From assembly GCF_000243135.2 (NCBI RefSeq), contig NC_019903.1, positions 1,092,001 through 1,156,000 on the forward strand: 64,000 nucleotides of DNA. The letters are read 5' to 3'. This DNA is from Desulfitobacterium dichloroeliminans LMG P-21439. GTDB lineage: Bacteria > Bacillota > Desulfitobacteriia > Desulfitobacteriales > Desulfitobacteriaceae. The translations under genes were made by a program, and so were the position numbers. Below the pieces are notes generated by a model, which was not told where the DNA came from, made no database searches, and saw only the letters and a program-made list of their open reading frames with translations. Below are positions 56,346-64,000 of this stretch, piece after piece (the first letter of the stretch is position 1; every line of letters starts with the position of its first letter).

Positions 56346-56694
56346 GTGCGCCACTCATGGCGATTAACTAGACGGTGAGAGTCCGTTGTGGGGGTATGTA
56401 GCGACCAACCATTAGCCAAGGGCAAGGGTGTCCACCGCGAGGTGGAATCTGAAGGAAGCCAGTCGGCAAAGTTTCGACCCGAGGAACACGAACATCATCA
56501 GGCGTGAAACGTGGGGTAAGACTGCTAAACAAGTTAAAGCCCAAAAGCTACACGGACACGTCAGCGTAAATGTTGCGGGTACATGGAATGAAAGTGAATC
56601 GTCTTACCGTGGGAGGCCTCACGGACAGGTGGAAACAGAGTAAGAAACCTGGTTGAAACAAGATTTATCGTGAGGAGTCAGCAGAAGCCATAGG
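56346..56694 (+). mobile_element. 5' fragment of a group II intron
   Basis: Begins GTGCGCC one base after the terminator T-run and continues through a domain I-like RNA (GGTGAGAGTCCGTTGTGG, AAACGTGGGGTAAGACTGC, CGTGGGAGGCCTCACGGAC) to GTGAGGAGTCAGCAGAAGCC, which normally stands just before the reverse transcriptase start. No reverse transcriptase frame and no domain V follow, so it is truncated and inactive. Confidence 0.75.
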
Positions 56695-56696
56695 TT

Positions 56697-56938
56697 AAGT
56701 GTCATAGGTACCTCCGGGTTAGAAGTAACGAAGTGCTTCGACAGGATCGAGTTTAGTTGCCTTTAAGGCAGGATAGACACTGGCCAAAAGGCTAATTACT
56801 AAAGCCGCCAAGATGGAGTAAAGAGCAAAAATAGGCTGGAAAGGCACTTGTACGGTCATTTGAGCCAAGGTAGATCCAAACTGAATTGCTAATTCCATTC
56901 CCAAAGCAAAGCCAATAAGGCCTCCTATGACTCAATGG
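56697..56938 (-). pseudogene. Remnant of ABC permease 1 C-terminus and permease 2 start
   Basis: On the minus strand the last 60 residues of an FtsX-like permease (LAQMTVQVPFQPIFALYSIL ... ATKLDPVEALRYF) match the gene at 37809 closely. They are followed by the same intergenic GGAGGTACCT and the permease 2 start ATGACACTT, where the sequence breaks into the intron fragment. A TGA interrupts the upstream side. Confidence 0.88.
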
Positions 56939-57069
56939 TATTCTCTCTCCAGCCAGGTTTAGGAGTTACTCTCATCCTCGGCTCACTTGCAGTAGGACTC
57001 GTAGCCATGACTTACCCCGCTTGGCGAACACTTAAGCTCGCTTGCAGGATGTGCTCAAGTTTATTTAAA
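56938..57069 (+). pseudogene. Remnant of ABC permease 2 C-terminus, opposite strand
   Basis: Plus-strand frame VFSLQPGLGV...VGLVAMTYPAWRTLKL, then a frameshift, then LQDVLKFI-stop, matches the end of the gene at 38982. It faces opposite to the preceding remnant, which shows an inversion within a lost second copy of the operon. Confidence 0.82.
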
Positions 57070-57138
57070 ACAAATGCTAATAGATAGACTATATTATTAT
57101 ATTGCAAAGCAATTTGCTAAATGGTAAACTACATTACA

Positions 57139-57152: not shown

Positions 57153-57176
57153 CAATTAAAGTAGAGGAGAGTCAGC

Positions 57177-57503
57177 ATGAACATTGTCATCACGGAAAAA
57201 ACCAAACTTTTTATCCATGAAAAGTACAATTCCCAAGTCACTATTCATTGCGTTATAGACGGTGGCTGAAAATGCAGTTCAGGCACGGCTATAGAAAGCC
57301 ATGTCCCCTCAGTTCGAGGGGGTACACCCAATGATCCAGAATATATTATGCACCAAGTCGATCAGATTACGGTTTACCTCGATCCCGGAATTAGGCTACG
57401 CGATCATACTGAACCCATGAAAATAAGCTCCATAGGCTTCTGGAACTTCCGCCTTTTGGAAGTTTCAAATGCTCGCTGTGCTTGGCCAGGGGAAGAGGAC
57501 TAG
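57177..57503 (+). CDS. HesB/IscA-like selenoprotein (in-frame TGA read as Sec)
   Basis: 108 aa if TGA at 57267 (codon 31) is read as selenocysteine. Before it the frame reads NIVITEKTKLFIHEKYNS and VIDGG; after it KCSSGTAIES and 70 more codons without a stop, ending ARCAWPGEED. VxxGG-C-xSG is the first conserved cysteine motif of the HesB/IscA fold, so Sec stands at that cysteine. HesB-like selenoproteins are a described prokaryotic family. A stem (57282-57290 with 57297-57305, one mismatch) with loop ATAGAA lies 22 nt past the TGA, in the range of bacterial SECIS elements. AGGAGAG precedes the ATG. Alternative: a pseudogene with one stop. Confidence 0.75.
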
Positions 57504-57550: not shown

Positions 57551-57604
57551 AACACCTCAAGATGAAGACCTAACATGTTAGATTTTAATCTTGAGGTGTT
57601 TTTT
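57551..57604 (+). terminator. Terminator of HesB-like gene, diverged copy of the one at 48788
   Basis: AACACCTCAAGAT/ATCTTGAGGTGTT stem with TTTTTT. The flank CCAAAACCCAAAAAGAGxTGAT after it is also shared with 48788. Confidence 0.88.
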
Positions 57605-57959: not shown

Positions 57960-58337
57960 ATGATGTCTAATAAACATAATAAGGAAAGTGAATATATAAG
58001 TTGTGACGACATATGTATTCATCCAGACCTAATTCATATGTATGCAGACCAAATTTTAAGTTTAGAACGAGCGACTAAGCTTGCCTATTTATTTAAGACA
58101 TTAGGAGATCCTACACGTATACGAATAATGGATGCACTCGCTAGGTCAGAGTTCTGTGTTTGTGATTTAGCGGAGCTTTTAGATTTAAGTCAATCCGCTA
58201 CTTCTCATCAACTGAGAATCCTTCGGAATAGTAACCTTGTGAAATACCGCAAGGATGGCAAAATGGTATATTATTCACTTCAGGATAACCATGTGCAAGA
58301 ACTTTACCGTCAGGGATTAGAACATATTGACGAATGA
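57960..58337 (+). CDS. ArsR/SmtB metal-responsive repressor
   Basis: 125 aa. FCVCDLAELLDLSQSATSHQLRILR is the metal-binding alpha 3/HTH block (CxC), and CDDICIH at the N-terminus gives additional Cys; the end SLQDNHVQELYRQGLEHI has the alpha-5 Asp/His set. It differs from the two CadC copies (only moderate identity). No partner gene in its own transcript; a terminator follows. It may control the neighbouring HesB-like, ZIP and surface operons. Confidence 0.9.
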   Translation: MMSNKHNKESEYISCDDICIHPDLIHMYADQILSLERATKLAYLFKTLGDPTRIRIMDALARSEFCVCDLAELLDLSQSATSHQLRILRNSNLVKYRKDGKMVYYSLQDNHVQELYRQGLEHIDE

Positions 58338-60531: not shown

Positions 60532-60645
60532 TTTGTAGACATTTCCTGAATTGGGTCTGTTTCGAACAAGATTCGTCAAAATTATTGCGCTAAATAGTAC
60601 AAGCAACGACTTGTTAGTTTATCCTAAGTTTGTTATCGTTACACA

Positions 60646-61545: not shown

Positions 61546-61602
61546 TTGACAGTTGAGTGTCTGTTCAATTATAATAGGTTCGATAGTTGAACAATTATTC
61601 AA
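61546..61602 (+). promoter_or_regulatory. Promoter and double operator of cad operon 2
   Basis: TTGACA (61546) and TATAAT (61570), 18-bp spacer. TTGAGT-gtct-GTTCAA (61553-61568) lies in the spacer and TTGAAC-aatt-ATTCAA (61587-61602) after the -10. Confidence 0.85.
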
Positions 61603-61622: not shown

Positions 61623-61985
61623 TTGTCTAAAAGTGAAATTTTATGTGATTGCGACGTTATTCATGCAGATGTGGTAGACTCCGTTAAAAAGAAAATGCCC
61701 GATGAAGATGTATTATATGATCTCGCTGATTTTTTTAAAGTTTTTGGTGATAGCACACGGGTAAAGATCCTGTGGGCGCTTGATGAAAGCGAGATGTGTG
61801 TATGTGATTTAGCGGTACTTCATAATATGACCAAGTCTGCTATTTCACACCAACTTCGATCGTTAAAACAAGCAGGCCTAGTAAAATCCAGAAAAGAGGG
61901 AAGGGTAGTATTTTATTCCTTAAAAGATGACCATGTAAAAGATATATTTGAAAAAGGCTTAGAGCACATCAGAGAAGATAAATAA
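61623..61985 (+). CDS. cadC: CadC-like repressor, second copy
   Basis: 120 aa, highly similar to the gene at 31450: LCDCDVIHADVV, EMCVCDL, SLKDDHVKDIFEKGLEHI. TTG start after AAGGAGGTG; the longer frame would cover the operator. Heads the second cad operon. Confidence 0.92.
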   Translation: MSKSEILCDCDVIHADVVDSVKKKMPDEDVLYDLADFFKVFGDSTRVKILWALDESEMCVCDLAVLHNMTKSAISHQLRSLKQAGLVKSRKEGRVVFYSLKDDHVKDIFEKGLEHIREDK

Positions 61986-62023: not shown

Positions 62024-62245
62024 ATGAAAAAAACATTTAGACTTGAAGGATTAGATTGCGCAAATTGCGCTGCGAAAATGGAAAACGCGATCATTGAGTT
62101 GGATGGCGTAAAAAATGCTACAGTTAACTTTATGACTACAAAAATGGTGATTGAAGCTGAAGATGAAAAAATGGCTATGATTGTAGAAGCTGCTGAAAAA
62201 ATAATAAAGAAAATTGAGCCTCAGGTTGTCGTGAAGAAGGCTTAA
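62024..62245 (+). CDS. HMA domain protein, second copy
   Basis: 73 aa with CANCAAKME (CxxC). Close copy of the gene at 31866. AGGAGG before ATG. Confidence 0.93.
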   Translation: MKKTFRLEGLDCANCAAKMENAIIELDGVKNATVNFMTTKMVIEAEDEKMAMIVEAAEKIIKKIEPQVVVKKA

Positions 62246-62261
62246 AAAAGAGGTTGCGAAT

Positions 62262-64000
62262 ATGAAAAAACGTCTTTGGCGAATTATTATTGGCGGTGCA
62301 GTTTTTGCTATCGCGCTCATTTTAAAAACAGACAATGAATTGTTAGAGCTTGCGTTGTATCTTGCTAGTTATATTATTGCGGGCGGCGATGTGGTATTAA
62401 AGGCTGCTAAAAACATTCTTAGGGGTAAGGTATTCGATGAAAACTTTTTGATGAGTGTTGCTACCATCGGCGCATTCTTTATTGGTGAATATCCAGAAGG
62501 CGTTGCAGTCATGCTATTTTATCTAGTTGGTGAAACGTTTCAAAGCTACGCAGTTGACAAGTCTAGAAAATCAATTGCAAACTTGATGGATATTCGCCCG
62601 GATTATGCGAATGTGAAGCACGGTGATGAACTGGTCAGAACCGACCCGGATGAAGTAAAGATTGGCGATATTATCGTCATTAAGGCTGGCGAGAGAATTC
62701 CGCTCGATGGAAAGGTCATTGACGGCAACTCTATGATCGACACTTCAGCACTTACTGGGGAGTCTGTTCCACGTGAAATAGGCGTAGCTGATGATATTTT
62801 AAGCGGATGTATCAATATTAACGGTGTAATTACTGCGGAAGTCACCAAGGAATTTGGTGAATCCACTGTCACTAAGATTCTTGATTTGGTCGAAAATGCA
62901 AGTAGTAAGAAATCGAAATCGGAACAGTTTATTACAAAGTTTGCAAGATACTATACCCCCGTTGTGGTAATCGTCGCCGTTCTTCTTGCAATTGTTCCCC
63001 CACTTGTTATTGAGGGAGCAACCTTTAGTGATTGGATTTACCGTGCACTCGCTTTTCTCGTGGTTTCCTGCCCGTGTGCTCTCGTTATTTCTATTCCGTT
63101 AAGTTTCTTCGGTGGAATAGGTGGAGCATCTAGAAGCGGAATTCTCGTCAAAGGCAGCAACTATCTGGAAGCGTTGGCACAAACGGAAATTGTTGTTTTC
63201 GATAAGACAGGTACCTTAACTAAAGGCGTGTTTAACGTCCAGGAAATTCATCCTGAAAATATATCTAAAGAAGAGTTGTTGGAGTTAACAGCATACGCTG
63301 AAAGCTACTCAAATCATCCGATCTCTCATTCACTAAAGCGTACCTATGGTAAAGACATTGACAATGAACGCATTACCAATGTTGAAGAGACAGCAGGTCA
63401 TGGTGTTACAGCAACAGTCGATGGTAAAAAAGTGATGGCGGGCAACATTAGGCTCATGGAAAAAATGGGTATCCCTTACTTCAAAGGTGAAGTCGTGGGT
63501 ACTGTAGTACACGTTGCAGTGGATAATGAATATGCTGGTTACATTGTCATTGCCGATGAAGTCAAAGCAGATTCAGCACAGGCCATCAGAGAACTGAAAG
63601 CTGCTAACATTAAACAAATCGTAATGCTGACGGGTGATGCTCAAAATGTAGGTACGAAAGTTGGCAAAGAGCTGGGTCTTGACAAGATTTATGCTGAATT
63701 GTTGCCGGCGGATAAAGTTGAAAAGCTAGAAGAGCTATTTGCTCAGAAGTCCGCAAAAGGAAAACTTGCTTTTGTAGGGGACGGGATTAATGATGCTCCT
63801 GTTTTAGCTCGTGCAGATATTGGAATAGCGATGGGCGGTTTAGGCTCTGATGCGGCTATTGAAGCTGCGGACATTGTCATTATGACCGATGAGCCTTCAA
63901 AAATTGCCACTGCGATGAAGATTTCACAAAAGACACTTAGAATTGCACGGCAAAACATCGCTTTTTCATTGGGTGTAAAAGCAGTTGTCCTTGTATTGAG
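62262..64000 (+). CDS. cadA: Zn/Cd/Pb-type P1B ATPase, second copy (cut by window end)
   Basis: 579 codons visible, no stop before the edge. TGESVP, SCPCALVIS, DKTGTLTKG and GDGINDAPVLARADIG are intact. High similarity to the gene at 32106 along the whole length, with many silent changes, so the duplication is not recent or was gained by transfer. Third gene of the second operon, 16 nt after the HMA gene. Confidence 0.95.
   Translation, partial: MKKRLWRIIIGGAVFAIALILKTDNELLELALYLASYIIAGGDVVLKAAKNILRGKVFDENFLMSVATIGAFFIGEYPEGVAVMLFYLVGETFQSYAVDKSRKSIANLMDIRPDYANVKHGDELVRTDPDEVKIGDIIVIKAGERIPLDGKVIDGNSMIDTSALTGESVPREIGVADDILSGCININGVITAEVTKEFGESTVTKILDLVENASSKKSKSEQFITKFARYYTPVVVIVAVLLAIVPPLVIEGATFSDWIYRALAFLVVSCPCALVISIPLSFFGGIGGASRSGILVKGSNYLEALAQTEIVVFDKTGTLTKGVFNVQEIHPENISKEELLELTAYAESYSNHPISHSLKRTYGKDIDNERITNVEETAGHGVTATVDGKKVMAGNIRLMEKMGIPYFKGEVVGTVVHVAVDNEYAGYIVIADEVKADSAQAIRELKAANIKQIVMLTGDAQNVGTKVGKELGLDKIYAELLPADKVEKLEELFAQKSAKGKLAFVGDGINDAPVLARADIGIAMGGLGSDAAIEAADIVIMTDEPSKIATAMKISQKTLRIARQNIAFSLGVKAVVLVL

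Follow-up and report, generated by a model that had tools for sequence, protein, structure and literature searches.

A candidate selenoprotein gene of the NF041239 family and its linkage to heavy-metal efflux genes in Desulfitobacterium dichloroeliminans

The locus and its interrupted frame

The window analysed here is a stretch of 64,000 nucleotides from the genome of Desulfitobacterium dichloroeliminans LMG P-21439, a single contig of 3.62 Mb. Near its 3' end lies a frame of 108 codons, followed by genes for metalloregulators and a cadmium-family P-type ATPase (Table 1). The frame begins with the ATG at 57177, and the only stop before its terminal TAG (57501-57503) is a TGA at codon 31; AGGAG about 7 nt 5' of the ATG provides the good ribosome site that an earlier reading of the sequence alone (hereafter the sequence-only reading) had reported together with the frame. 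The standard list of ORFs covers the region only as a 51-aa C-terminal fragment that starts at 57348. The terminator-like repeat behind the TAG suggests that the gene forms a transcript of its own. Just upstream we noticed a fragment of a group II intron domain (RF02001, 132.6 bits; window 56431-56602, + strand), next to which an ABC-permease-like gene is represented by pieces on the minus (56719-56904) and plus (56935-57087) strands.

Table 1. Features of the locus, in window coordinates
Feature	Position	Strand	Basis
Putative ArsR/SmtB-type operator ATGAACATCTGTTCA, just 5' of the start codon	57138-57152	+	Pattern scan
Ribosome binding site GAGGAG	57164-57169	+	Sequence
Predicted selenoprotein gene, 108 residues, Sec31	57177-57503	+	Frame read; NF041239 above cut-off
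UGA, codon 31, presumably read as Sec	57267-57269	+	TGA conserved in paralogue and relatives; selABCD present
Hairpin I (GGCU-AUAGAA-AGCC), in variable spacer	57287-57300	+	No covariation
Probable bSECIS (hairpin II) with stem UCCCCUC/GAGGGGG and loop AGUUC (57311-57315)	57304-57322	+	Covariation; site shared by Sec members but lacking from Cys members
Terminator-like inverted repeat ACACCTCAAGAT...ATCTTGAGGTGT, then T run	57552-57604	+	Sequence read directly
ArsR/SmtB-family metalloregulator	57960-58337	+	NF033788, 104.6 bits; 81% identical to regulator beside second copy
Second ArsR-family regulator (TTG 61623 chosen as start)	61623-61985	+	48% identity to L073 regulator; operator-like site at 61587
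HMA-domain protein and cadmium-family P-type ATPase, extending past the window	62024-64000	+	TIGR01512, 489 bits (cut-off 313.5)

A second copy of the gene is present elsewhere in the genome (G000:C1:1393605-1393895), about 70% identical and with a TGA at the same codon. Between the two copies, dN/dS is 0.26 for the part that precedes the TGA and 0.41 for the part that follows it, which indicates purifying selection on both sides. Their DNA is 95% identical over codons 30-50, compared with 78-79% on either side. The genome also encodes the machinery for Sec insertion, for which the sequence-only reading had proposed to look: tRNA-Sec (selC) was found with 71 bits and selD with 382 bits, while the neighbours of selC are ORFs for selA and selB and an operon for formate dehydrogenase, in which the alpha-subunit frame (fdhA) reads through one UGA (selA, selB and fdhA were named from a reading of the ORFs).

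Homologues of the gene were found in 90 of the 398 genomes of a phylum-wide sample, mostly with one TGA and otherwise with Cys, and in 41 of the 74 genomes of the order; the gene is absent from the three remaining species of the genus, and a tblastn search of plasmids and phages returned no relatives. The TGA at codon 31 is kept by the paralogue and by relatives, and Cys forms occur elsewhere in the family. The presence of tRNA-Sec did not separate genomes with Sec members from those with Cys members (it was detected in 23 of 23 genomes tested), and the sole match in a search of genome contigs, from a planctomycete (L009), was discarded as lying in the wrong frame inside another gene. Nine low-scoring family members contain two in-frame TGA codons (G082, G118, G152, G229, G253, G277, G344, G364 and G383), possibly as double selenoproteins or possibly by chance. 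At one further locus (L151, G456:C10) there is a tandem pair of family members, of which one has a TGA and the other a Leu at the Sec position.

These comparisons support the central proposal of the sequence-only reading, a bacterial selenoprotein gene in which UGA 31 would be decoded as Sec. The opposite interpretation, that the TGA is a true stop or a sequencing error in a decaying frame, could appeal to the truncated product expected from normal decoding and to the degenerate gene and intron pieces just upstream. However, the TGA is shared with a diverged paralogue and with relatives in several other families, selection acts 3' of it, and a hairpin is tied to the Sec members (see below), so that we regard a pseudogene as scarcely credible.

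Family membership and predicted fold

When the TGA was read through, the protein search that had been proposed gave a match of residues 1-97 to NF041239 ('CC/Se motif family (seleno)protein') with 45.4 bits, above the curated cut-off of 40 bits, which the paralogue also exceeds (41.5 bits). The same model is matched by all 50 aligned members, and the column corresponding to residue 31 contains Cys or Sec in 50 of 50. NF041239 is an already known family: it is listed among the selenoprotein families in a 2026 review, with a prediction in Moorella thermoacetica and a CxxU motif (PMC13188914). Taken together, the profile match, the fold, the Sec machinery and the TGA-containing paralogue identify the window gene as a new member of this catalogued, functionally uncharacterised selenoprotein family.

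The sequence-only reading had called the product HesB/IscA-like, which holds at the level of the predicted fold and fails at the level of sequence, as the window protein gave no match in Pfam, PF01521 included. PF01521 is weakly matched by 13 of the 50 aligned members, and a few of the 50 weakly match SufA (four members), IscA/HesB or TIGR01911. An AlphaFold2 model built from the 50-member alignment has a pLDDT of 88 and a pTM of 0.78, with only 53 for residues 31-40. Its best matches in the PDB are E. coli SufA, IscA and related structures, with probabilities of 0.94-1.00, modest TM-scores (0.38-0.55) and a sharp drop after rank 9; all of the top nine we take, in part from their titles, to be of the SufA, IscA or HesB type. 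Judging from motif order and fold, Sec31 would replace the first Cys of IscA. The window protein gives no match to TIGR01911, the model of HesB-like selenoproteins, and by these profile comparisons its family is NF041239 and not that known family.

Hairpins downstream of the UGA

The stem-loop that the sequence-only reading had noticed after the TGA exists (hairpin I), and its apical loop indeed has a G at position 4 only, outside the usual first two positions. The role of bSECIS, on the other hand, most likely belongs to hairpin II, which in the window gene is encoded by the P-x-V-R-G-G codons. A bSECIS is expected to have a loop of 3-9 nt with a G within its first two positions; hairpin II has a loop in this range with a G at position 2 and an energy of -10.9 kcal/mol. 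Its loop starts 41 nt after the UGA, outside the 16-37 nt that is found in most, though not all, bSECIS elements (PMC13188914). In nine sequences (eight members of the clade described below and an ally outside it, L055), 98.4% of the cells of hairpin II are paired and two pairs exhibit compensatory changes, a covariation reached in 0 of 500 shuffles.

In a comparison of 79 Sec with 33 Cys members of the family, a GU-loop hairpin was near-universal in the former and nearly absent from the latter, with mean best hairpin energies of -6.5 and -0.9 kcal/mol, respectively (Mann-Whitney p ~4e-14, an optimistic value because the members are related). The short-form Sec members carry the hairpin on the P-x-V codons with the loop 23 nt after the UGA; here 94% of the cells are paired and 24 cells are changed on both sides, a covariation that none of 500 shuffles equals and that is lost when the partner is shifted along the sequence. 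For the corresponding stretch of Cys members the paired fraction is 50-52%, a level similar to that of its own shuffles.

Hairpin I lies at the canonical distance from the UGA and is kept in both copies of the D. dichloroeliminans gene and, to a lesser degree, in relatives, which would speak for it as the bSECIS, yet its first two loop positions contain no G and its pairs do not covary. Furthermore, the spacer that contains it varies within the clade in length (19-37 nt) and in sequence, while hairpin II stays. We therefore consider it improbable that hairpin I is the bSECIS. One clade member, L158, does not have the insertion that holds hairpin I. Short folds of hairpin I show no clear gain in stability over shuffled sequences (z from -0.75 to -1.4), and the 101-nt region as a whole reaches z -2.5; a hairpin around the UGA itself, seen in the fold of this region, was rejected because differences in the paralogue disrupt it. 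Hairpin I may bring the SECIS element effectively closer to the UGA. Since the spacers of most clade members fold only weakly better than shuffled sequences, such a compacting hairpin is offered as a hypothesis.

A sister group (L085-L089, L126, L127, L152 and L076) is devoid of the P-x-V hairpin and carries a different one, CGUAAC-AGGUA/C-GUUACG, on V-T-G-S/R codons, with its loop (AGGUA or AGGUC) at the usual distance from the UGA. From these sequences, the SECIS element has apparently been relocated inside the coding sequence with the usual distance retained, which provides a natural experiment on SelB geometry. In the clade of the window gene, the covarying element with its loop 41 nt or more from the UGA falls outside the range of published search tools, so that such genes can be missed.

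Metal-gene linkage and proposed role

In the tree, the window gene forms one group with its closest relatives, L011, L075, L090, L091, L092, L156, L157 and L158 (support 93/80). All clade members found have the TGA, no Cys form was seen within the clade, and Cys25, Sec31, Cys33 and Cys101 are invariant in the six members that were aligned together. A C-terminal remnant of a clade member was observed downstream of the apparent end of an ArsR-like gene (L169/L173, G154:C48).

Nine of the ten clade loci have a gene for a heavy-metal P-type ATPase no more than 5.4 kb away (seven of them no more than 2 kb; the tenth locus is at a contig end), compared with none of 40 loci of other clades, which represent other lineages and in part have shorter flanks. 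All ATPases tested exceed the cadmium-family cut-off. Several of the linked loci come from one genus, so that about five cases are independent. ArsR-family regulators are found near several clade loci, and at L172 an operator is followed by the ATPase gene, by the selenoprotein gene 27 nt later and then by ArsR. The pattern scan for operators returned 11 sites in the window, with 2.3 expected. The site ATGAACATCTGTTCA resembles operators of the ArsR/SmtB type, and presumably it binds a regulator of this type. Similar sites also occur at 60645 and 61587, in front of a putative transporter gene (60735) and of the ArsR-ATPase genes. Among the clade loci, operators were seen only in the window, at L073 and at L172, where a perfect copy heads the operon. 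The second copy (L073 1163-7501) adjoins genes of a conjugative element, with ORFs that read as relaxase-like and VirD4-like, and hence the metal cassette may be mobile.

We propose that metal entry, with Zn/Cd/Pb-like ions as the trigger, would release an ArsR/SmtB-type repressor from the operator, whereupon the selenoprotein gene would be transcribed alone up to the terminator-like repeat. SelB bound to hairpin II would then bring Sec-tRNA to the UGA, giving a HesB/IscA-fold protein of 108 residues with the soft ligands Cys25, Sec31, Cys33 and Cys101. Such a protein would most likely bind soft metals, either as a buffer or as a chaperone that serves the cadmium-family P-type ATPase encoded nearby; alternatively, it might protect or carry Fe-S clusters. 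We infer, then, a metal-induced accessory protein that binds soft metals or protects Fe-S clusters. The recoding part of this scheme is strongly supported by the comparisons above, and the scheme as a whole, a functional, metal-induced and likely soft-metal-binding selenoprotein whose UGA is recoded via hairpin II, appears to us probable.

Two other functions have to be weighed against metal buffering or delivery. The protein could serve, in the manner of IscA, to carry iron-sulphur clusters or to repair them once toxic metals have caused damage, as the fold match to SufA and IscA, the weak matches of family members to PF01521 and SufA and the metal-gene linkage itself would allow. However, the protein has a single Cys near the C-terminus in place of the C-terminal CxC pair of IscA, its ligands are different from those of IscA, and no isc or suf genes were noticed nearby, which makes this function possible but rather unlikely. 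A role in thiol redox chemistry, with U-x-C as the redox pair and induction by metal stress only through attack on thiols, seems less likely still: Sec31 is indeed close to Cys33, and most selenoproteins without an assigned role are regarded as having redox functions (PMC13188914), which counts in its favour, but the fold is not thioredoxin-like and four conserved soft ligands resemble a binding site more. The preferred reading, binding of soft metals, invites a broader one, which we advance tentatively: a selenium-based soft-metal chaperone or buffer in the Zn/Cd/Pb efflux cassettes of anaerobes, with a SECIS element beyond the canonical distance and an intervening hairpin that closes the gap.

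In the literature searched, we did not find the clade, its metal linkage or its long SECIS spacing described. Part of a functionally uncharacterised selenoprotein family thus gains a context-based role in heavy-metal efflux and a testable set of ligands. With other members of NF041239 the window protein shares a profile score that exceeds the cut-off, a Sec in the column that is invariably Cys or Sec, and a P-x-V motif that carries the SECIS hairpin, but it has GG instead of Cys before the Sec, inserted codons between Sec and P-x-V, the additional invariant Cys25, Cys33 and Cys101, and the linkage to metal efflux genes. It resembles IscA, SufA and ErpA (PF01521) in predicted fold (E. coli SufA 2d2a, TM 0.55; IscA 1r94 and 1x0g), and differs from them in an identity of only about 10%, the missing C-terminal CxC and Sec in place of Cys. 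The HesB-like selenoproteins of TIGR01911 have a similar HesB-type fold and Sec in a GGU context, but their motif is UxGP (PMC13188914), whereas that of the window protein is UKC and the model is unmatched. Finally, in selenoprotein families linked to mercury and arsenic resistance Sec has likewise been proposed as a soft-metal ligand in a resistance setting; those are other families, whereas the clade of the window gene goes with cadmium-family P-type ATPases.
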